A stretch of DNA of 64,000 nucleotides. It comes from Cellulomonas sp. NS3 (GTDB taxonomy: Bacteria; Actinomycetota; Actinomycetes; Actinomycetales; Cellulomonadaceae). The stretch covers positions 4,588,001 through 4,652,000 of the forward strand of contig NZ_CP103289.1 of assembly GCF_024757985.1 (NCBI RefSeq). Reading direction: 5' to 3'. How positions within the stretch are numbered: position 1 is the stretch's first letter; each line of letters begins with the position of its first letter. Below, piece after piece: positions 1 to 8,594 of the stretch. The notes under the pieces are model-generated. The model saw nothing but the letters and a program-made list of their open reading frames with translations. It was not told where the DNA came from and ran no database searches. The translations under genes and the position numbers were made by a program.

Positions 1-687
1 AGCACGGTCCGTGGCGAGCGGGTCCCGAAGGTTGTCGTCTTCGACGTGAACGAGACGCTGAGCGACATGTCGCCGATGTCGGCCCGTTGGAAGAGTGTCG
101 GCGCGCCGGCCTACCTCGCGCGGCAGTGGTTCGTCGAGGTGCTTCGTGACGGCTTCGCTCTGGCCGCCGCGGGTGCGTCGCAACCCTTCGCAGAGATCGC
201 CGCTGCCACCGCCGAGCGGCTCCTCATGCCCGTCGGAATCGAGGACGTGCCGGCGGCGGTGAAGCACGTGATGGCGGGTTTCGGTGACCTCGACGTCCAC
301 CCGGACGTGCCGGACGGCGTGCGCGGCCTTCGCGCCGCCGGGATCCGGTTGGTCACGCTCTCAAACGGTAGTGCCAAGGTGGCAGATGGCCTGCTGACGC
401 GGGCGGGCCTGCGGGGCGACCTCGAGGCTCTCCTCAGCGTCGACGACGCGCCACGGTGGAAGCCTGCGCCTGAGGCGTACGCGCACGCGGTCCGCTGGGG
501 CGGGGTGGCGGCGGCCGAGATGCTACTCGTCGCGGTGCACCCCTGGGACATCGACGGCGCAGGACGGGTCGGGATGCGCACCGCCTGGATCAACCGGGAC
601 GCAGCCCACTACCCCGCATTCTTCCGGCAGCCGGATATCGCAGTGGCGTCACTGACGGACCTCGCAGCGCGGTGGTCCCGGCGATGA
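1..687 (+). CDS. Haloacid dehalogenase type II (HAD), 5' end outside window
   Basis: HAD-superfamily hydrolase of the 2-haloacid dehalogenase type. Motif I VVVFDVNET lies at about 31-57, motif II LSNGS at about 358-372, the motif III lysine in RWKPAPEAY, and motif IV as HPWDIDGAGRVGM near the C-terminus. The GTG at 46 sits inside motif I and cannot be the true start. The frame is open to base 1 with no start codon, so the N-terminus is upstream of the window. The predicted role is hydrolytic dehalogenation or dephosphorylation of a small acid through an aspartyl intermediate; the substrate is unknown. The stop is 16 bp before palindromic site R1, so this is the first gene seen in the cassette-like array. 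Confidence 0.85.
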   Translation, partial: STVRGERVPKVVVFDVNETLSDMSPMSARWKSVGAPAYLARQWFVEVLRDGFALAAAGASQPFAEIAAATAERLLMPVGIEDVPAAVKHVMAGFGDLDVHPDVPDGVRGLRAAGIRLVTLSNGSAKVADGLLTRAGLRGDLEALLSVDDAPRWKPAPEAYAHAVRWGGVAAAEMLLVAVHPWDIDGAGRVGMRTAWINRDAAHYPAFFRQPDIAVASLTDLAARWSRR

Positions 688-702
688 AGCCGCTGCTGGC
701 CC

Positions 703-727
703 GTACCTGAACGGACGTTTAGGTGCA
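703..727. repeat. Palindromic intergenic site R1
   Basis: First seen copy of the family with half-site CGTTYRRGTACATG. Arms CCTGAACG and CGTTTAGG face each other across a 2-nt centre (GA). The outer TACATG part is degenerate on both sides. It lies 16 bp after the HAD stop codon and 15 bp beyond the stop of the small minus-strand ORF 743-904, so it sits between two converging gene ends. Confidence 0.8.
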
Positions 728-742
728 CCGTCATACGACGCC

Positions 743-904
743 TCAGGTGCTCGGCGGGGTCTCCGAAAACCCTGCGCGGGCGATCGGCTCGCGGAGCCAA
801 GGCCAGTCGTCCTCGGCCCAGATCGTGAAGCGGTCTACAGCGCCACCCTCGCCCAAAGACAGCTCGACCAGCCACTCGACGTCGGAGTGCTGAACCACCT
901 CCAC
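743..904 (-). CDS. Small ORF, possible gene remnant (53 aa)
   Basis: A 53-codon minus-strand frame from a GTG at 904. Its composition looks like protein (VEWLVELSLGEGG, FTIWAEDDWPWLREPIARAG), unlike the other frames here. No clear ribosome binding site is seen. Upstream in the same frame an open stretch without a start reaches a stop near 993, so the ORF may be the 3' part of a broken gene. No family recognised. It occupies the R1-R2 interval, where another minus-strand coding-like tail (stop at 1007-1009) runs up to R2. Confidence 0.3.
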   Translation of the reverse strand: MEVVQHSDVEWLVELSLGEGGAVDRFTIWAEDDWPWLREPIARAGFSETPPST

Positions 905-1049
905 CGGGACGAGGTCTGGTGGTGGATGTGGGCCGCGAGGGCGCGCGCCCGCGGCTCGCTCATCACGGGCGCCCCCGCGCGTCGTCGTTCACCCGGACAC
1001 TGTGCGTCACGGCCGCTTCTCGCGGAAGTAGCCGGCGCCTTCGCAGGTG

Positions 1050-1080
1050 CATGTAATCAAACGATCGTTTAGGTACATGT
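1050..1080. repeat. Palindromic intergenic site R2
   Basis: Copy of the same family, centred on AAACGATCGTTT (1059-1070) with outer arms ACATG on both sides. The centre dinucleotide is AT. Three positions between core and outer arm mismatch between the two halves. The stop codon of the minus-strand remnant that follows overlaps its right edge (1080-1082). Confidence 0.85.
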
Positions 1081-1391
1081 CACGCTGTCGTGCGTTGATC
1101 ATGGCGTCGCAGCGGCTTGGTCAGCCATCGCCGCCACCGGGGCACGATCAGCACCGTCAGCGCCGGTGTGGCGTAGGCGAGGGCTGCCCAGGGGTGCGAT
1201 CGACCCGCGGCGAGGGCTGCCCGGGCATCGCGAACGGCCATCACGACGCCCGGATCGGCCGGGTCGTGCACTAGCTCGAGTGGAGCGGTGTACCGGGAGT
1301 CGGCCGGGGCTTGCTCCCAGTACTGGTACGGGCCCCGCGTGGTCCACCCTGCTTCACGTACAACCGAGCGGAGGTTGGTCGACGCTCCATG
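1080..1391 (-). pseudogene. 5'-truncated gene for a small membrane protein, cut at site R3
   Basis: On the minus strand a coding-like frame of about 100 codons fills the whole R2-R3 interval (…GWTTRGPYQYWEQAPADSRY…, then PWAALAYATPALTVLIVPRW, a probable membrane segment, then a basic tail). The only possible start is a GTG at 1271, well inside the good-looking region. Upstream the frame runs without a start straight through R3 to a stop at 1440-1442. The simplest reading is a gene whose 5' end was removed at R3. The stop codon touches R2. No family recognised. Confidence 0.5.
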
Positions 1392-1392
1392 C

Positions 1393-1427
1393 CATGTGCA
1401 CTTGAACGAACGTTCGAGTACATGTAC
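1393..1427. repeat. Palindromic intergenic site R3
   Basis: Family member with arms CTTGAACG and CGTTCGAG around centre AA, followed on the right by GTACATGTAC and mirrored on the left by CATGTGCA. The coding-like minus-strand frame of the R2-R3 interval reads through it without interruption. Confidence 0.85.
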
Positions 1428-1491
1428 CGGCGTCCGCGCTCACGGGGTCACTCCGGCGTCGCCGAGGGTTGAGGGATCGAGCGTGGAGCGT

Positions 1492-1842
1492 TCAGCGGCG
1501 GGGATCGACCGGAACGTACCCGCCCTCGGCATCTCGGACGAGCAGCGTCGCGACGTCGCCCGCGACGCGGACGAGGCCTTCGCGCCAGACGCCGTCGACG
1601 AGCATCCGAACCTGGCCCTGACCGTCGCCCGTGGGGAGGGTGTACTCGTCGAGCAGCACGTCGGCGTGTTGCGCCTGCTGCTCGACCTGCCGGGCCAGGC
1701 CCGGATCTGTGCGCGCATCGACGACGAACCAGGCTCCGATGCCCACCGCCGCCACGGTCAGCACGACCAGCAGGGGGACCCACAGCCGCTCGAGCGAGTC
1801 GCTGCGCCCGCGAGGCATGTCTTTCGCCATTTCGAGGAACAC
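1492..1842 (-). CDS. Single-pass membrane protein, unknown (116 aa)
   Basis: Starts at GTG 1842, five bases after a perfect AAGGAG (complement of 1848-1853); longer starts lack such a site. A short basic cytoplasmic N-terminus is followed by one membrane segment (LWVPLLVVLTVAAVGIGAWFVV, about residues 20-41) and an extracytoplasmic part of about 75 residues ending GGYVPVDPRR. No domain recognised; the outer part looks like a small beta-rich domain (inference). It is the only gene between R3 and R4 and points away from R4. 1843-2030 holds nothing I can identify. Confidence 0.6.
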   Translation of the reverse strand: MFLEMAKDMPRGRSDSLERLWVPLLVVLTVAAVGIGAWFVVDARTDPGLARQVEQQAQHADVLLDEYTLPTGDGQGQVRMLVDGVWREGLVRVAGDVATLLVRDAEGGYVPVDPRR

Positions 1843-2030
1843 GTCCGCTCCTTCCCGCCGGCCGGGCCGGCTGCCCAACACCGGCGTCTGGTGCGCCGCC
1901 GCGACGCGGAACGCGCAAGCCAGGGTTCATGCCATCGTCACACGACGGTCAAGCCAGCACCAGGCCACGCTCGTTTGAGCCAAACCGTCGAGACTGCCTC
2001 ATCGCGAACTCGACCGCGCTCTGCTCGAGT

Positions 2031-2062
2031 GCATGTACTCAAACGATCGTTTGAGTACATGC
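2031..2062. repeat. Palindromic site R4, perfect 32-bp palindrome
   Basis: The most symmetrical copy: 16 bases (GCATGTACTCAAACGA) followed by their exact reverse complement, centre AT. It lies between divergent genes, about 190 bp before the minus-strand membrane protein and 54 bp before the HEAT-repeat gene. Confidence 0.9.
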
Positions 2063-2116
2063 CGTCAGAGCGGGCAGCGGCCCACGGGCGCCTCCGCCGC
2101 GCGGCAAACTGGGGCG

Positions 2117-2920
2117 GTGACGCCGGCTGAGATCCACCTGACGCGACTGGTCGAGGCGGACGATCCCAACGCAGTAGCCGCGGAGCTGCGAGCCGCCGTG
2201 GGTGAGCGAGGAGCCCTCGACCTCGCAGTGTCGTGGAGCCGAGCGATCGACCCAGACATACGGAGCGCCGCGCTGGATCTGCTCGTCGCCGTCCTCGACG
2301 CGGCCTGGGAAGCGTCGCCGGAGGTCGGCCCCGCACCCGAGATGGTCCGCCTGGTCATCGAGCAGGCCGGCTCCGTCTCGGTAGACCACGAGAACGAGTA
2401 CCTGCGTTGGATCGCCGCGCGAGCCCTGCGGCTGGTGGCAGGTCTCGACGAGGACGGACAAGCGACCGAGCTGTTGATGCGCTTCGCCGACGACGAGGAC
2501 GGCGACGTTCGCCTCCAGGTGTCGTTCCAGCTGGCCTTCTCCCTTGAGGACGACGCCGCACCTGACGACCCGGACGTGGAACTGCTCGTGCGGCTGCTCA
2601 GCGACCCCGACCCCGATGTCCGCGACTACGCGTCCTTCGCCTTCACCATCAACTCTGTCGACTCCCCGACCATCCGAGACGAGCTCCTGACCCTGAGCGC
2701 GACCTCCGAGGAGCCGGCCGCAGGGCAGGCGGGGGCCGCCCTCGCCGAGCGCGGCGACACCCGGGTGCTCCCGATCGCCGTCGTTTACGTACATGCACGA
2801 ACAGGCGATGGCCGACCGGCTGCGGGTCAGCGGTCGCGTCGAAAGCCGGCGCCAGCGTGCTCGCCGCTGCTCCCGGTGCCGCTCGTGCCGCTCGTCCCGC
2901 TCGTGCGTCGAACTCGCTGA
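2117..2920 (+). CDS. HEAT-repeat protein with a probably non-native C-terminus
   Basis: GTG 2117 (VTPAEIHLTRLVEADDPNAV) is the best start; the frame upstream runs through R4 and is non-native. Residues 1-220 form repeated helical pairs of HEAT type, with recurring acidic turns (DPDPDVRDYASFAF, EDGDVRLQVSFQLAF), as in small bacterial scaffold proteins. At about residue 222 the frame enters half-site R5 and continues as a Pro/Val-rich tail (PLVPLVPLV) encoded by a 9-nt tandem repeat. The native 3' end was probably lost at R5. Partner and function are unknown. Confidence 0.6.
   Translation: MTPAEIHLTRLVEADDPNAVAAELRAAVGERGALDLAVSWSRAIDPDIRSAALDLLVAVLDAAWEASPEVGPAPEMVRLVIEQAGSVSVDHENEYLRWIAARALRLVAGLDEDGQATELLMRFADDEDGDVRLQVSFQLAFSLEDDAAPDDPDVELLVRLLSDPDPDVRDYASFAFTINSVDSPTIRDELLTLSATSEEPAAGQAGAALAERGDTRVLPIAVVYVHARTGDGRPAAGQRSRRKPAPACSPLLPVPLVPLVPLVRRTR
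2782..2797. repeat. Half-site R5 of the palindrome family
   Basis: CGTTTACGTACATGCA matches one arm of the family. The expected left arm is not recognisable. It lies inside the 3' part of the HEAT-repeat reading frame, and the sequence after it (2798-3022) has no clear gene, only a 9-nt tandem repeat based on GTGCCGCTC at about 2876-2905. Confidence 0.6.
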
Positions 2921-3022
2921 CCGGCTGCAGGCGCGCGACGCCCTCGAGTCGTCTGGCGAGGGCGAAGATGCTTGTCCGCGCGACAAGATGGCGGAGTTCG
3001 GCATCCGACGGAGGAGGACGAC

Positions 3023-3409
3023 GTGGAACGCGTGACCGGGGTCGGTGGCATCTTCGTGGCGGCGCGCGATCCGGAACGGCTGGCCCGGTGGTACAGCCTC
3101 CAGCTCGGGGTCGACCCCGCGCCCGACTCCTACGAGGTGTCCTCGTGGTGGCAGGACGCGGGCCCGACCGTCTTCGCCCCCATTGCCCACGACGGGGAGC
3201 ACGTCGCCGGCCCCGCGCACTCGTGGTCGTTGAACTTCCGCGTCGCGGACCTCGACGCGATGGTCGAGCAGCTGCGCCGCAACGGTGTCGCCGTTGAGGT
3301 CGACCCCGAGGTCTACCCCAACGGCCGGTTCGCCTCTCTGCAGGACCCCGAGGGCAACCCGCTGCAGCTATGGCAGCCCGAGGGCGCCGATCGGCGTGGA
3401 CCGGTCTGA
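3023..3409 (+). CDS. VOC-family (glyoxalase/bleomycin-resistance fold) protein
   Basis: Start GTG 3023 follows GAGGAGG with good spacing; upstream starts lack it. The 128-residue protein has the two half-modules of a VOC protein: GGIFVAARDPERLARWYS at the N-terminus, then FRVADLDAMVEQL, and the typical end FASLQDPEGNPLQLWQPE. Such proteins bind a metal and small ligands and include lyases, dioxygenases and antibiotic-binding proteins; the substrate cannot be read here. The stop overlaps the next small membrane ORF by 4 bases. It belongs to the R5-R6 interval. Confidence 0.85.
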   Translation: MERVTGVGGIFVAARDPERLARWYSLQLGVDPAPDSYEVSSWWQDAGPTVFAPIAHDGEHVAGPAHSWSLNFRVADLDAMVEQLRRNGVAVEVDPEVYPNGRFASLQDPEGNPLQLWQPEGADRRGPV

Positions 3410-3549
3410 GCGTCGCCTCTTGGGATAAGCCCGATCCCGACACCGGGTCCTGGCTGCTCGCCCATGGGTGTTTTGCGGTCGTGCTCGTGCTGGTGCTGGT
3501 CGCCATCGGTGGCGTCATCGCCGTCCGCTGGCTCGTCAGCCTGTGGTGA
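3406..3549 (+). CDS. Small single-membrane-segment ORF (about 47 aa)
   Basis: In the frame ending at 3547-3549 a convincing peptide is seen: SWDKPDPDTGSWLLAHG followed by a strong membrane segment of Val/Leu/Ile and the end RWLVSLW. The only in-frame start close by is a CTG at 3406 overlapping the VOC stop codon, so the start is uncertain and the gene may be translationally coupled or 5'-truncated. No known family. The rest of the way to R6 (3550-3619) is empty. Confidence 0.4.
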   Translation: MSVASWDKPDPDTGSWLLAHGCFAVVLVLVLVAIGGVIAVRWLVSLW

Positions 3550-3619
3550 CGGGCCGACGTCCGCACCACCACACGCCACGACTTCATCAGCACCAAGCCC
3601 TCGCCGGCCGGCGAAGCAC

Positions 3620-3655
3620 GTACATGTACTCAAACGAACGTTTGGGTACATGTAC
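3620..3655. repeat. Palindromic intergenic site R6
   Basis: Longest copy: GTACATGTACTCAAACG, centre AA, then CGTTTGGGTACATGTAC. One mismatch between 17-nt arms. Both ends carry GTACATGTAC, itself a palindrome. It lies between the VOC/small-membrane ORFs and a converging minus-strand gene. Confidence 0.9.
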
Positions 3656-3743
3656 GCAGGCTCCCCTGCGGGCGGTGCCTGTCCCGCTCCGTGGTCGGCA
3701 CGTCTGCGCAGAGCCAGCGGCACGTCCGTGTGGAGTCAGGCCC

Positions 3744-4379
3744 TCAGTCGAGCCAGCTCGGCAGAGGCGTGCCTGGATGGACGACCGCGATGTTGTCCGA
3801 GGACGGGACGAGTACGCCGTCCAGGGAATCACCCAGCACGACGTCGACACGGTCTCCCTCACCGCGGATGGTGATCCGGGGGCACCAGAAGCTGCCGAGG
3901 GCTTCGTCCCACGGGACGTAGTGGAGATCCACACCCGTGACGCGCCCGCCGACCATCGGCGCCCAGCTCGGGGCATGCTCCCCCACGTCCCAGATCGCCA
4001 CGTCCGCGTCGCTTCTGACGCCGCTGCCGAGCATCGGGGTGGGCTGCAGGCCGATTCCCTCGCGTTCGCCGGGGGGATCCCACGTGAGCGAGAACACCGC
4101 GCCCCCGTCAGTCGCCACCTCGAACCCGTGGTCCACGGCGTCGAACCCGTCGAAGAGCCATGTCGGGTCGTTCCACTCCAGCTCCGCGTCGATGTTCCGA
4201 GGGCCGTCGTCAACTAGTCCGGGGTGCAGCTCGTGGCGGCGGTAGTCGAGAGTGAAGTAGCGGACAGCTCGGATGCGCGCGCCGACCAGCTCGTCGGCAT
4301 CGCGGCGGCGCGCCTCCACCTCGGCGGCCGAGCCGGCCCAAGACCACACCCGCCCTTCTCCACGTGCCCCGACCTCCAT
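3744..4379 (-). CDS. Orphan cytoplasmic protein, unknown (211 aa)
   Basis: A full-length acidic soluble protein with no signal peptide or membrane segment. Notable stretches are LDYRRHELHPGLVDDGPRNI, EWNDPTWLFDGFDAVDHGFE and WDEALGSFWCPRITIRGEGD; its many Trp, Asp and Gly residues suggest a beta-rich fold. I do not recognise the family. ATG 4379 is used; a GTG 11 codons further in, after GGAGAAGGG, is an alternative. It is the only gene between R6 and R7. Cargo-type functions such as immunity protein are possible but unsupported. Confidence 0.7.
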   Translation of the reverse strand: MEVGARGEGRVWSWAGSAAEVEARRRDADELVGARIRAVRYFTLDYRRHELHPGLVDDGPRNIDAELEWNDPTWLFDGFDAVDHGFEVATDGGAVFSLTWDPPGEREGIGLQPTPMLGSGVRSDADVAIWDVGEHAPSWAPMVGGRVTGVDLHYVPWDEALGSFWCPRITIRGEGDRVDVVLGDSLDGVLVPSSDNIAVVHPGTPLPSWLD

Positions 4380-4448
4380 GGCGCGAGTCTTGCAGGTCCT
4401 CTACCCATCGAAGCTCTGCCAGGTCCCCTCGGCGGCAGGTGCAACGAC

Positions 4449-4479
4449 ACGTACCTAAACGATCGTTTAGGTACATGTC
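4449..4479. repeat. Palindromic site R7, last copy of the array
   Basis: GTACCTAAACGA followed by its exact reverse complement gives a perfect 24-bp palindrome at 4451-4474, centre AT, with a further ATG on the right arm. It lies 70 bp before the start of the minus-strand orphan gene. No further copy was found from here to 64000, so this marks the right end of the array. Confidence 0.9.
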
Positions 4480-4649
4480 TCACCGGGCTGACACCAGGGC
4501 TGTACGCCAGCGTGCCTCCACTCGCCACTGGCAGTGGCTCACTGTGGCCTCGGTTCCACCAGCGGTGACCGCAGCGCCGGGAGTCGGGCCTGGTCTCGTC
4601 GTGGTCGGTGTCCCGGGCTCATGGCGGCTCGCGCTGTCGACGGGTTCGG

Positions 4650-4859
4650 TCAGCTGTCGATGTCCTCGGTGGAGCAGCCGCCCTGCTCATCAGGTGCGTC
4701 CGTCCGCAGGGAGCAGTCGCTGGCCTGGTGGGCGTCGAGACCGCTGCGGATCCTCCGGGTGATGGCGTCGAGGGCCGTCCGTCCGGGCCCAGGGCTGAAG
4801 ACCTGGCGGCACGGGTGGTGCGTTGACCGGTTGAGCCCGCCCTCGTTTCCGGCCACCAC
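4650..4859 (-). CDS. Possible small gene in the R7-chemoreceptor gap (69 aa)
   Basis: The 4480-5011 stretch has no obvious gene. This minus-strand frame has the strong G/C third-position bias of real genes here and a protein-like sequence ([20 protein letters not shown], ending [12 protein letters not shown]). Tandem GTG codons at 4859/4856 could start it; no good ribosome binding site is seen. No family is recognised and it may be a remnant. The opposite strand is also open, so confidence is limited. Confidence 0.35.
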
Positions 4860-5011
4860 GGGGAACGTCGCCTGGAGGTGCGGGGTGCGGGTCGGCCAGG
4901 CGGTGGCGGGTCACGACACTCGGGCTCGCGCGACGACTCAGCGGGTGGCGATGCGGACCGATGAGACTGGCACCGGCTCTCACCGGTGCCGCCCCCGCCC
5001 TGGAGTCCTTG

Positions 5012-6610
5012 ATGCTGCTGAAGAACCTCTCGATCGGTCGTCGTCTCGCGATCGGGTTCCTCGTGGTCGTCCTCGCGATGATCACCGTGACCGCGGTGGG
5101 GGTCACGCGGGTCGAGCAGATCCAGACGCGCCTGAGCACGATCAACGACCTGAACAGCGTCAAGCAGCGCTACGCCATCAACTTCCGCGGGAGCGTGCAC
5201 GACCGTGCGATCGCCCTGCGCGACGTGGTGCTGGCGGGGTCGCCGGCCGACGTCGACCGCGAGGTCGCGCTGATCGAGAGCCTCGAGGCGGACTACGCCG
5301 ACTCCGCGGTGCTCATGGCCGAGGTGTTCGCCGACCCGGCGAACGTCGGCGAGAAGGAGGTCGAGGCGCTCGCGCAGATCGAGCGCATCGAGGCGGAGAC
5401 GATGCCGCTCGTCGACGAGGTCGTCGGGCTCCAGCGCGCGGGCGAGGGCGAGGCCGCCCTGGCGCTGCTCACCGAGGAGGCCAAGCCGCGGTTCGTCGAG
5501 TGGCTCGCGGCCATCAACGTGCTGATCGACCTCGAGGAGTCGATGAACCAGGCGGAGTCCGCGCAGGCCCGCAGCATCGCCGGCAGCTTCCTCATGACGA
5601 TGGTGCTGCTGGCCGCGCTGGCCGCGCTGGCGGCGAGCGTCGTCGCGTGGCGGCTCACGCGAGGGATCACGCGACCGCTCGCCGCGGCCGTCGACGTGCT
5701 CGCGCACGTGGCCGACGGCGACCTGACACAACGGCTCGACGTGACGTCGAACGATGAGGTCGGCCGCCTCGCGCGCTCCCTGAACACCGCACTGGCCGCG
5801 GTAGGTGGTGCGCTCGGCTCGGTCGCCGGCAGCACGCAAGGGCTGTCCGCTCTCAGCGGGCGCATCGGTGAGCTCTCCGGACGGATCGCCGAGGGCGCGC
5901 AGGAGTCCGCGGCGCAGGCCGACGTCGTGGCGTCCGCCGCGAACGAGGTCTCCTCGAACGTGCACGCCGTCGCCTCCGGCTCCGAGCAGATGGGCGCGTC
6001 GATCCGCGAGATCGCTCAGAGCGCCAACGAGGCAGCCGGCGTCGCCCAGCGCGCCGTGGACGTCGTCGAGATCACCAGCGCGACGGTCTCTCGGCTCGGG
6101 GACTCCAGCCGCGAGATCGACGCGGTCGTCAAGACCATCACGACCATCGCCGAGCAGACCAACCTCCTCGCGCTCAATGCCACGATCGAGGCCGCACGCG
6201 CCGGTGAGGCGGGCAAGGGCTTCGCCGTCGTGGCCGGGGAGGTCAAGGAGCTCTCGCAGGAGACCGCGCGGGCGACCGAGGACATCTCCCGGCGGGTCGA
6301 GGCGATCCAGGCGGACACGCGCAGCGCCGTCGCGGCGATCGCGGAGGTCGCGTCCGTCATCGCCCGCATGAACGACCACCAGATGACGGTCGCCTCGGCA
6401 GTCGAGGAGCAGAACGCCACGACGACCGAGATGAACCGCGGGGTCGCCGAGGCGGCTGCCGGCTCGGAGCAGATCGCCGCGAACATCACCCGGGTCGCCG
6501 ACGTGGCGCGCGCGACGACCGACTCGGTGGCCGAGTCCCAGCGCGCGGCGGACGAGCTCGCCAGTGTCTCGGAGGAGCTTCGCGGGCTCGTGCAGCAGTT
6601 CCGCTTCTGA
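5012..6610 (+). CDS. Methyl-accepting chemotaxis protein
   Basis: Transmembrane chemoreceptor of 532 residues that would pass ligand signals to CheA/CheW. ATG 5012 follows GGAG by 6 bases and gives [12 protein letters not shown] just before TM1 (about 11-33). A four-helix-bundle type sensor follows to TM2 (about 190-213), then HAMP, then the methyl-accepting signalling domain with its conserved tip [19 protein letters not shown] around residue 380. No C-terminal CheR-binding pentapeptide is present. No che or flagellar genes are nearby, so this is an orphan receptor. It is the first ordinary chromosomal gene after the palindrome array. Confidence 0.95.
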
Positions 6611-6627
6611 CCGCGTCTCAGCGACCT

Positions 6628-6685
6628 GGCCGAAAGCGAGCCAAAGCGGCCCCCTTCCCGCCGTCGCAGCCACCCGACAGCGGAC
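6628..6685. repeat. Imperfect direct repeat, copy A
   Basis: The core 6640-6685 matches 7242-7287 without gaps at 35 of 46 positions; shared parts include AGCCAC, CGACA and CGGAC at the right end. The preceding GGCCGAAAGC stretch also resembles the other copy. The two copies flank the minus-strand gene 6688-7029. Confidence 0.45.
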
Positions 6686-6687
6686 AC

Positions 6688-7029
6688 CTACGGTCGGTCG
6701 GCCAGCCGTAGGCGCAAACGCTCTGCGACGCGAGTGGCCTCATCGCGCTCGTCGAGCATTCCAACCTGTTCGCTGACGGCCGCCCACCGGACAAGCTCCG
6801 CCAGGATGAACGACCAGTCCGTCGTGAGCAGGTCAGGAGTGATGTCGGCGGTGACCGGTGGCCACCCCGCTGGTCCTTCCTCCCGGTTCGGGTGTGACGC
6901 GGCAGCCGCCCACCCGGCTTTGCGAATACGACGGCCGGTCTCGACGCGTGGGTCATCGCCGTCCACGGCTGCGTCAGATACGGAGTTGTCGATCGTGGCG
7001 TCGACCAGCAGCCAGTCGCTGACGGGCAT
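6688..7029 (-). CDS. Hypothetical protein (113 aa)
   Basis: Start ATG 7029 (MPVSDWLLVDATIDNSV); the frame continues upstream but loses coding character. Soluble protein with a helical C-terminal half (TTDWSFILAELVRWAAVSEQ, then ERDEATRVAERLRLRL). No family recognised. It stands alone between the two copies of an imperfect direct repeat (6628-6685, 7231-7287), which may mean it arrived or moved as a unit (inference). 7030-7339 has no gene beyond the right repeat copy. Confidence 0.6.
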   Translation of the reverse strand: MPVSDWLLVDATIDNSVSDAAVDGDDPRVETGRRIRKAGWAAAASHPNREEGPAGWPPVTADITPDLLTTDWSFILAELVRWAAVSEQVGMLDERDEATRVAERLRLRLADRP

Positions 7030-7230
7030 GGCGATCTCTCGGGCGTCGTTCACGGCGGAAGTGTCGCCCCGCGGACACCGACTACGCCAGCCGCTCCCAG
7101 TCACGTCGTGGACAGCCCGCCCTACCTCGACGAAGCGGGCCCTATCCCGTGGCCGGGGCAGGCCTCGACCGGAACGACGGCGATCGCGACCAACGGTTTC
7201 GACCGCCGTTTGGCGTAGACCGGCGTCGGT

Positions 7231-7287
7231 GGCCGGAAACAGCGAAAGTGGCCTCCGTCGCGCTGCTGTAGCCACTCGACAACGGAC
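7231..7287. repeat. Imperfect direct repeat, copy B
   Basis: Partner of 6628-6685, same orientation, about 600 bp away; core 7242-7287 begins GCGAAAGTGGCC and ends CGACAACGGAC. It lies upstream of the minus-strand gene 6688-7029. Shared bases may derive from an old duplicated gene end or an insertion target. Confidence 0.45.
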
Positions 7288-7339
7288 GTGTTCCGATGAG
7301 AGACGCAAAGGCGGTTGCGAACGGACCGCGCTGAGCGGG

Positions 7340-7882
7340 TCAGCGGAGGTTGAGGACGGCTTCGTGCAGCACGCGCCGCAGCTCGAAGTGGGCCTCGACC
7401 ATGCGCCCGAGGATGATCAGGTGGCGCACCTGCTGAGGGGTCCACTCCCGGGCGCTGGTGTCCATGATCTCCAGGGCGCCCAGCGGTTCGTCGCCGATCG
7501 AGCTGAGCGTCGTTCCCATGTAGGCCCGCATCTTCACCGCGCCGGTGACGTACGGGTTGGCTGCGAAGCGGACGTCGCGCGTCATGTCCGGGACCACCGT
7601 GGGTTCCAGGCGGTCCTGGATCGTGACCGCGGTGAAGGACTCCGCCTGCTGGAACGTCGCGATGAAGTCGCCCACACATGCCTTCACGACGCCTTCGTCC
7701 GGCAGCACCAGACCGATCGACACGTACGGGGCGCCTGTCACGTCGCGCGCCAGCTCGACGAGGTCGTCGTACTCCGGACCGTCGAACGAGTGCACCAGCC
7801 CGTACCGGTCCAGCGCCTGCAGCGAACGAGGCTCCTCGGCAAGCAGGGCGTCGGCCGGTGCGACGGTCACGTTGGCATTCAT
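7340..7882 (-). CDS. GAF-domain protein
   Basis: Cytoplasmic protein of about 180 residues. After MNANVTVAPADALLA it follows the GAF pattern used in bacterial sensor modules: DDLVELARDVTGAPYVSIGLVL, DFIATFQQAESFTAVTIQD, PYVTGAVKMRAYMGTTL, PLGALEIMDTSAREWTPQQ. There is no output domain, so it would act as a ligand-binding partner or as a remnant of a larger sensor. ATG 7882 and the GTG just before it are both behind GGAAGGGA. The adjacent 7883-8181 stretch holds only the hairpin element at 8051-8092. Confidence 0.8.
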   Translation of the reverse strand: MNANVTVAPADALLAEEPRSLQALDRYGLVHSFDGPEYDDLVELARDVTGAPYVSIGLVLPDEGVVKACVGDFIATFQQAESFTAVTIQDRLEPTVVPDMTRDVRFAANPYVTGAVKMRAYMGTTLSSIGDEPLGALEIMDTSAREWTPQQVRHLIILGRMVEAHFELRRVLHEAVLNLR

Positions 7883-8050
7883 CACGGGTCCCTTCCACGG
7901 TCGCCGACCCCCGACGACCTACCAGCCCACCCATCGGCCCCGCACCCCGCCCATCCAGCATTCGCAACAGAACCGGCCGACATCACACCCTCGCGGCGAG
8001 CACACGTGGCCGAGCCGGCGCCGACGGCACGGCGAGCACACGGACGCGAA

Positions 8051-8092
8051 GGAGGCCCCGCTGCTGCAGGGGGCTAGAGCAGCGGGGCCTCC
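8051..8092. repeat. GC-rich hairpin element, copy 1
   Basis: Perfect 15-bp stem (GGAGGCCCCGCTGCT and its complement) with a 12-nt loop GCAGGGGGCTAG. The 40-bp core is the exact reverse complement of 11934-11973, and similarity extends into the flank (GGTCGATA near 8100-8108 on the minus strand). There is no T-run, so it would be a non-canonical terminator, a small RNA or a repeated element. Confidence 0.75.
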
Positions 8093-8181
8093 ACGTCAGC
8101 GTATCGACCACATCTGGACGCCGGTCCAGTGGCGGACGGATGAACCCACGTCGGCAGGGCGCGGCATACCCCCTCCCCTAG

Positions 8182-8586
8182 TCAGCTCGGAGGTAGCCAC
8201 AGCGACCACACGCCGGCCACAACGCCGCACACCGCCCCGAGCACGACGAAACCAGGCATCGGCGCGGAGCCCGTCGAGCACGCTCGACAGGATCGTGGCC
8301 TGCACACGCGTGCCGGACGGGTCCCACGACCCGGTCGTAGTGAACGGGAGTCCCTCGGCTTCGTGGATCCGCCGGTGCTTCTCCGTCAGCCGGTTGATCG
8401 CCTCGTGGTCCGTGCCTGCTCCGCCCGCTCCCGTCCGTGCACCTCGCTGAGCTCGTCGAGCCGCCACGTCACGTGCAGGGCGCGCGCCGTTCTCTTCCGG
8501 GCCGTGGCGAGCCCGTGGCCGATGCCCCACAGCGTCAGCAGGCGCGACGCGACGGTCAGAAGGGTCAGGACGACCCGCACATCCAT
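8182..8586 (-). pseudogene. Two-membrane-segment protein gene with two compensating frameshifts
   Basis: The minus strand starts well (ATG 8586, MDVRVVLTLLTVASRLLTLWGIG, then a helical region) but this frame stops at 8386-8388. The coding signal changes frame near 8412 (DHEAINRLTEKHRRIHEAEG) and returns near 8275 to the first frame, ending in a clear membrane segment PGFVVLGAVCGVVAGVWSLW and stop at 8182-8184. The total length is a multiple of three, so the shifts cancel. Either the gene is decayed or two base errors are present. The intact protein would be about 134 residues with membrane segments at both ends. Confidence 0.5.
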
Positions 8587-8594
8587 GGCCGGGG

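Follow-up and report, generated by a model that had tools for sequence, protein, structure and literature searches.

Arrays of probable gene cassettes separated by palindromic sites with alternating two-base cores in Cellulomonas sp. NS3

Introduction

The locus examined here raises the question of whether palindromic sites that lie between unrelated genes mark the ends of single mobile units and, if they do, which enzyme recombines them. It occupies the first 4.5 kb of a 64,000-nucleotide stretch (the window; genome 4588001-4652000) of the single-contig 4.776 Mb chromosome of Cellulomonas sp. NS3, a relative of Cellulomonas cellasea, and contains six full 30-base sites and one half-site. Integrons, which depend on a single family of tyrosine recombinases, are the best-known carriers of gene-cassette arrays. 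The present analysis indicates that the single units are very probably mobile cassettes held in arrays, and as an explanation of the whole we lean slightly towards cassette arrays that recombine at the two-base core of their sites through a small serine recombinase. If true, this would be a second, unrelated solution to the cassette array, found in an actinobacterium, and such arrays would have evolved more than once.

Results and Discussion

Sites are confined to arrays

A full site consists of a 14-base arm, a two-base core and a second 14-base arm. An earlier note made from the sequence of the window had counted seven sites with thirteen half-sites; all thirteen half-sites were found, but one of the seven sites is itself a half-site, and the positions given were off by 0-3 bases. 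When scored with a weight matrix of 36 positions, which was derived from all listed sites except three (825544, 838546 and 4590766; 55 of 58 used), the six full window sites reach 27.7-61.0 bits and no other window position exceeds 9 bits, which agrees with the claim that sites are lacking from window position 4480 onwards. A permissive mismatch scan returned three extra weak matches to the right of 4480, with deviating core lengths, which we take as chance. The left limit required correction, as the array begins before the window; two further sites (genome 4586452 and 4586891) precede window base 1 by 1.1-1.6 kb, and the window holds the right part of what is here called array D.

The site is not unique to this locus. 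Five clear arrays (A-E), comprising the 58 listed sites, and a decayed sixth (F) are present on the same chromosome (Table 1), and intervals between sites (53 listed) have a median of 804 bases and a range of 316-8592, with 47 of them below 1300. When the whole genome was searched with a 23-base pattern at no more than two mismatches, 45 matches were obtained in forward and 36 in reverse orientation, and all of these fall inside arrays A-F (the 611 kb examined held exactly these). At this stringency the sites occur solely as arrays. Shuffled loci gave a top weight-matrix score of 10.3 and a next score of 0.5, and 280 kb of array-free sequence from this chromosome, with the core unscored, contained two matches above 4 bits (8.6 and 6.7).

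The palindromes might instead be operators of a single regulon, or binding sites of another kind within an ordinary variable region, for which a perfect dyad in a mostly intergenic position would also be expected. Such sites would not be confined to arrays, however, and copies of the units would not break at site centres, as described below. The earlier note had argued that the arrangement is not that of operators, and since no match is scattered through the genome before promoters, a regulon is contradicted and can hardly be credited.

Single units are duplicated, with breaks at the sites

Self-comparison of the arrays revealed seven single site-to-site units that occur twice with different neighbours, being 78.5-99.9% identical from core to core. 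Both copies may share an array or lie in different arrays, at distances of up to 1.9 Mb, and identity switches at the site; ungapped identity in the 46-base flanks beyond the arm is 0.22-0.41 for 13 of the 14 flanks and 0.48 for the fourteenth (random 46-base pairs from the arrays gave an ungapped 95% range of 0.15-0.43). The closest pair, from arrays A and C, has one difference in 803 bases between the cores and is 1.93 Mb apart and inverted. One such unit is in the window, where 700-1050 is 78.5% identical core to core to 2764044-2764396 of array C, the right part at R1 being shared. An eighth shared stretch (A 828409-828800, B 939255-940076) was not counted because only one of its boundaries is in common.

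The order of units in array A gives an example of an inserted unit. Units W and Y are adjacent at 833119, and copies about 99% identical stand in the order W-Z-Y at 840862/842580, where the W arm is joined to a Z arm and a Z arm to the Y arm. This is an empty and a filled site within one genome, and the exchange point of Z is confined to 7 bases that include the core. Units that arrays have in common, breaks at the site and a pattern confined to arrays thus bear out the suggestion of mobile cassettes with an unfamiliar type of site.

Neighbouring cores alternate

Read in one orientation, the site consensus is approximately GGTGYACYYRAACG-A(A/T)-(C/G)GTTYRRGTRCATGTAC. Its two ends are unlike, one being GGTG-like and the other CATGTAC-like, so the site has a direction, which is mostly one way in array A, mostly the opposite in C, and mixed or symmetric in B and D. 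The central two bases are mostly AA or AT, and neighbouring cores differ in 38 of 46 pairs (shuffle mean 24.8; 0 of 20,000 shuffles reach 38) or, once second copies are removed, in 31 of 36. For this test the half-site at window 2782 was omitted, and one of the 46 pairs therefore extends across it; sites were skipped if the core was not AA, TT or AT (940558, 941749, 4586891, 4588700), and array F was unused. Gene orientation was considered as a cause of the alternation, and no pattern was seen by eye in the array gene list.

The cores bear directly on whether the units are small transposons that have inverted ends of 14 bases and whose target duplication is the central two bases. The half-sites are indeed the unit ends, and a lone arm stands at the R5 junction, as such an element would allow. 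With a duplication, the two bases to the left of a unit should be repeated to its right, whereas the two sides differ in the 38 of 46 (31 of 36) cases above, which contradicts transposon units with a 2-base duplication; no HUH Y1 transposase is encoded in the genome, other transposase families not having been searched genome-wide. This explanation is very doubtful.

Exceptions to the alternation include unit Z, which has AA on both sides and was itself inserted as one piece. The base after an AA core is either C or G, and Z, in which it is C, entered at an AA followed by G. This base was therefore no barrier to entry, and the stretch that has to match between sites may be the two core bases only, a length that would suggest a small serine recombinase.

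A tyrosine recombinase, whether a far relative of IntI, a Xer protein or a lost or distant integrase, would instead use the central 6-8 bases as its overlap in an integron-like array. Sites of tyrosine recombinases have arms of 11-12 bases flanking 6-8 bases, a geometry into which the palindromes can be read, the function would be as in integrons, and there are seven PF00589 matches in the genome. None of the seven lies within 35 kb of an array, however, and recombination between AA-C and AA-G sites, as in the Z event, would be disfavoured by a 6-8-base overlap. TIGR02249 has 8 matches, none over its cut-off (best 72.7 of 265 bits). The attC boxes are RYYYAAC and GTTRRRY; one or the other is present in 1 of the 58 sites and both in none (0/58), and an integron or orphan attC cluster is rejected on these boxes together with the IntI search. 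We consider a tyrosine enzyme of any kind unlikely.

A proposed mechanism

Under the small serine recombinase explanation, a cassette unit would extend between the centres of two successive 30-base palindromic sites, and the recombinase would cut at the two-base core, joining AA to AA and AT to AT. A unit between two AA cores would enter or leave as a circle with one site. With AA at one end and AT at the other, a unit could not exit alone; it would be swapped for a like unit by two exchanges (cassette exchange) or, alternatively, would exit together with its neighbour. As an AA-AT unit would be unable to leave alone, the alternation would guard single units against loss. The enzyme would most likely belong to the invertase/resolvase family of small serine recombinases, as the imperfect palindrome anatomy and the core alternation fit such a system, in which the cores of partner sites would have to match. 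Serine chemistry is probable. More tentatively, the system could be described as a 'serine integron', in which chromosomal cassettes, a small serine recombinase and alternating incompatible AA and AT cores keep genes locked yet exchangeable. Alternating cores would then be a natural form of the recombinase-mediated cassette exchange used by engineers, in which two incompatible sites surround a payload, and sites of this kind could yield a tool for swapping single genes.

A candidate recombinase

Four PF00239 matches were found in the whole genome, three of which are to the right of array A, at 1.7, 11.7 and 14.1 kb from its end. Of these, the gene closest to the array (845054-845632) has Resolvase and HTH_7 domains, and among solved structures its best relative is the DNA invertase 4m6f, which we take to be Gin. 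C. cellasea has a broken relative of this gene, 93% identical over 117 residues, at a distance of 0.7 kb from the sole convincing site of that species. This linkage to sites in two species favours the gene, which may be regarded as the leading candidate for the recombinase of the sites, although we stop just short of expecting it to be the enzyme. It partly answers the suggestion that a recombinase should accompany the arrays, as there is a candidate beside sites in two species and none beside arrays B, C, D and E. No relatives of it were detected in viral contigs, and the best plasmid and phage relatives are 57% and 56% identical.

Evidence that weighs against this explanation

Several observations do not sit easily with the recombinase or with exact exchange at the core, and they are collected here. 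The whole-genome search located no PF00239 gene beside arrays B, C, D or E. The relatives of the candidate at 78-81% are five genes in three genomes of other families, and the DNA-binding end is nearly the same in the four of the five that could be aligned, the fifth being out of frame. These genomes contain only stray 3-mismatch hits to the site pattern, at about the number of the reversed control, and no arrays occur near the relatives. The candidate and all five relatives have a common upstream repeat, TCTCASAAGTCGR, which is unlike the array arm; it is a conserved inverted repeat with copies about 34 bases apart (own 845.64-845.70 kb, upstream of the candidate) and is possibly the recombinase's own resolution site. 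Because the relatives lack the sites and have this repeat upstream, the gene is called a candidate. A similar TCTCASAAGTCGR-like pair, with no recombinase gene, is present at own 126.2 kb.

The alternation is weak when single arrays are taken (A 0.04, B 0.015, C 0.024, D 0.07; E is uninformative). When aligned with gaps, 2 of the 14 flanks reach 0.67 and 0.70, above the control 95% range of 0.43-0.63, and the value of 0.70 beats all 996 controls. Cores are not always equal between copies, as the left cores of the B/E pair are AA and TT and the right cores of the C/D pair TT and TC. Comparison of the three closest pairs gives 4 differences in the 84 bases of the unit's own arms, against 11 in the 2049 bases of the remainder, which exact core exchange does not predict. 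This excess may mean that exchange or repair extends into the arms, and is perhaps due to self-correction of the palindromes or to repeated exchange. The arm differences lie in array A at 832488/840231, 833119/842580 and 833822/843283.

The greater variation of the arms is what would be expected if no dedicated enzyme were involved and the palindromes extruded and broke, repair by short homology joining units at the sites. The sites are near-perfect palindromes, and within the HEAT gene of the window a unit end has been joined to DNA that is not a site; both would suit such repair. It leaves unexplained both the AA/AT alternation and the directional consensus, and appears unlikely. Homology to a 334-residue HEAT-repeat frame of C. 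cellasea, which contains no sites and adjoins a homolog of the 59-residue frame of the window, ends at about window 2772, 10 bases before the lone R5 arm; the window frame extends past this point into unrelated sequence, and the glyoxalase gene comes next. At R5 a unit end is joined to a non-site, as an off-target event would look.

Distribution in other genomes

Any match to the pattern was found in 8 of 221 genomes of the family, the seven besides Cellulomonas sp. NS3 having 1-3 hits compared with 81. The exact 21-base pattern was found in eight stretches of an 84,980-species collection (from which the own genome was possibly excluded). The C. cellasea stretch is the sole convincing one; four of the others have no arm pair at up to 8 mismatches in all and three have weak pairs. 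One viral contig gave a match, which is weak. With this site, the system is therefore seen in a single species and as a relic; none of the other genomes searched shows arrays, and no identical array was found in distant species.

In C. cellasea (contig G103:C9, 324.5-360.5 kb) homologs of cassette genes from arrays D, A and C lie within 36 kb of one another and of the recombinase relic. No recognisable sites were present in this region, which may be a source region or a decayed array. Arrays with another site sequence were sought near related recombinases, and no group of at least 3 similar palindromes was found in 20 family neighbourhoods of 3.9-20 kb (clusters of 7, 4 and 3 were obtained from the own arrays; GC-rich clusters of 3-4 also appeared in three of five further control stretches). 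A laxer search beside 7 order, 4 plasmid and 1 phage relatives returned GC-rich clusters of up to 9, none of which was judged an array; array A, as a comparison, gave a cluster of 15. Judged by title and abstract opening, no cassette arrays with serine recombinases or in actinobacteria were found among the best 9-20 matches of each search of an open-access collection.

Contents and surroundings of the arrays

Features of the window and the arrays are given in Table 1.

Table 1. Sites and genes of array D in the window (window positions) and arrays of the chromosome (genome positions in kb).
Feature	Position	Strand	Detail
HAD-type hydrolase gene	46..687	+	Pfam Hydrolase/HAD_2; unit between genome site 4586891 and window 700
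Site 1 (R1)	700..729	-	Degenerate arms; + strand core GA; 27.7 bits
Site 2 (R2)	1050..1079	.	Core AT; 55.5 bits
Site 3 (R3)	1395..1424	+	Core AA; 53.5 bits
129-residue open frame	1492..1881	-	Unit 1395-2032; without Pfam match
Site 4 (R4)	2032..2061	.	Perfect palindrome; core AT; 57.6 bits
HEAT-repeat gene	2117..2920	+	Pfam HEAT; C. cellasea comparison
Half-site (R5)	2782..2795	+	Single arm, HEAT-gene sequence on other side; direct reading, C. cellasea comparison
Glyoxalase-like gene	3023..3409	+	Unit 2782-3623; Pfam Glyoxalase_6, Glyoxalase
59-residue open frame	3370..3549	+	DNA 78% like C. cellasea over 138 bases, beside HEAT gene there
Site 6 (R6)	3623..3652	+	Core AA; 61.0 bits
211-residue open frame	3744..4379	-	Unit 3623-4448; without Pfam match
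Site 7 (R7)	4448..4477	.	Core AT; 53.3 bits; right end of array D
Array A	810.8-843.3 kb		25 sites
Array B	938.5-947.8 kb		11 sites
Array C	2762.7-2771.8 kb		11 sites
Array D	4586.5-4592.5 kb		9 sites including half-site
Array E	2537.3-2538.1 kb		2 sites, one unit
Array F, decayed	3140.1-3145.2 kb		Three sites of 24.6-39.1 bits and one of 17.0 bits

Thirty array proteins were scanned singly against Pfam and 19 had no match; the matches obtained were to SUFU, DUF6368, DUF7660, HEAT, LRV, PQQ, glyoxalase, HAD and S66 peptidase, and a joint Pfam scan added ankyrin repeats. The left units of array A hold operons, one set comprising a luciferase-like monooxygenase, flavin reductase, MFS and TetR and the other a glycosidase, sulfatase, PadR and MFS. 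An extract of one study lists SuFu, ankyrin, HEAT and leucine-rich repeat proteins among the immunity proteins of polymorphic toxin systems (PMC3482391), and by analogy part of the cargo may protect against the toxins of rivals. Scans with NCBIfam and PADLOC did not settle this immunity role.

The G+C content of arrays A-D is 0.69-0.71, compared with 0.75 in the remaining window. Array C starts about 1.2 kb after a tRNA gene and a short frame (own 2761.5-2762.0 kb); the frame has no Pfam match, though it resembles the beginning of an integrase. Rfam identified one tRNA and nothing else in the 100 kb holding arrays A-C. Immediately left of the array E unit is a copy, 93.7% identical over 589 bases, of an IstB (IS21) gene that lies to the right of array A. 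The genes that adjoin array F and the C. cellasea site on the left are alike, at 83% over 261 bases.

Comparison with known systems

Integrons, as described in part of one account (PMC8618304), carry mostly single-gene units, mostly of unknown function, with one site per unit, species-specific sites and units gained singly. The arrays described here resemble them in each of these respects, with tandem units moved singly at sites (the seven duplicated units, and Z between W and Y). They differ in having no IntI over the cut-off, no attC boxes, near-perfect 30-base palindromes, a two-base core of two alternating types and genes that face both ways.

The rAID arrays of Bacteroidales, according to an extract of their description (PMC12247911), are recombinase-linked arrays of short, co-oriented genes with conserved motifs between them and a predicted tyrosine recombinase. 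Short genes with intergenic motifs are common to both, and some of the cargo here has immunity-type domains. Here, however, the genes face both ways rather than being co-oriented, the linked enzyme is a serine recombinase and no PF00589 match is found within 35 kb of an array, so that these arrays do not belong to the rAID group.

The Hin and Gin inversion systems and the multi-site inverters offer a parallel in their sites, as hix and gix are imperfect palindromes with a two-base core, and the candidate enzyme here is Gin-like. Those systems flip parts of one or two genes, whereas here whole unrelated units move between distant arrays. The pdif modules of Acinetobacter plasmids are Xer-dependent; in their sites the XerC and XerD arms differ from each other and enclose 6 bases, and the orientation of the sites alternates. 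They too are modules bounded by short recombination sites, with the enzyme encoded elsewhere; in the arrays of Cellulomonas sp. NS3 the arms are alike, the core is of two bases, and it is the sequence of the core, not the orientation of the site, that alternates.

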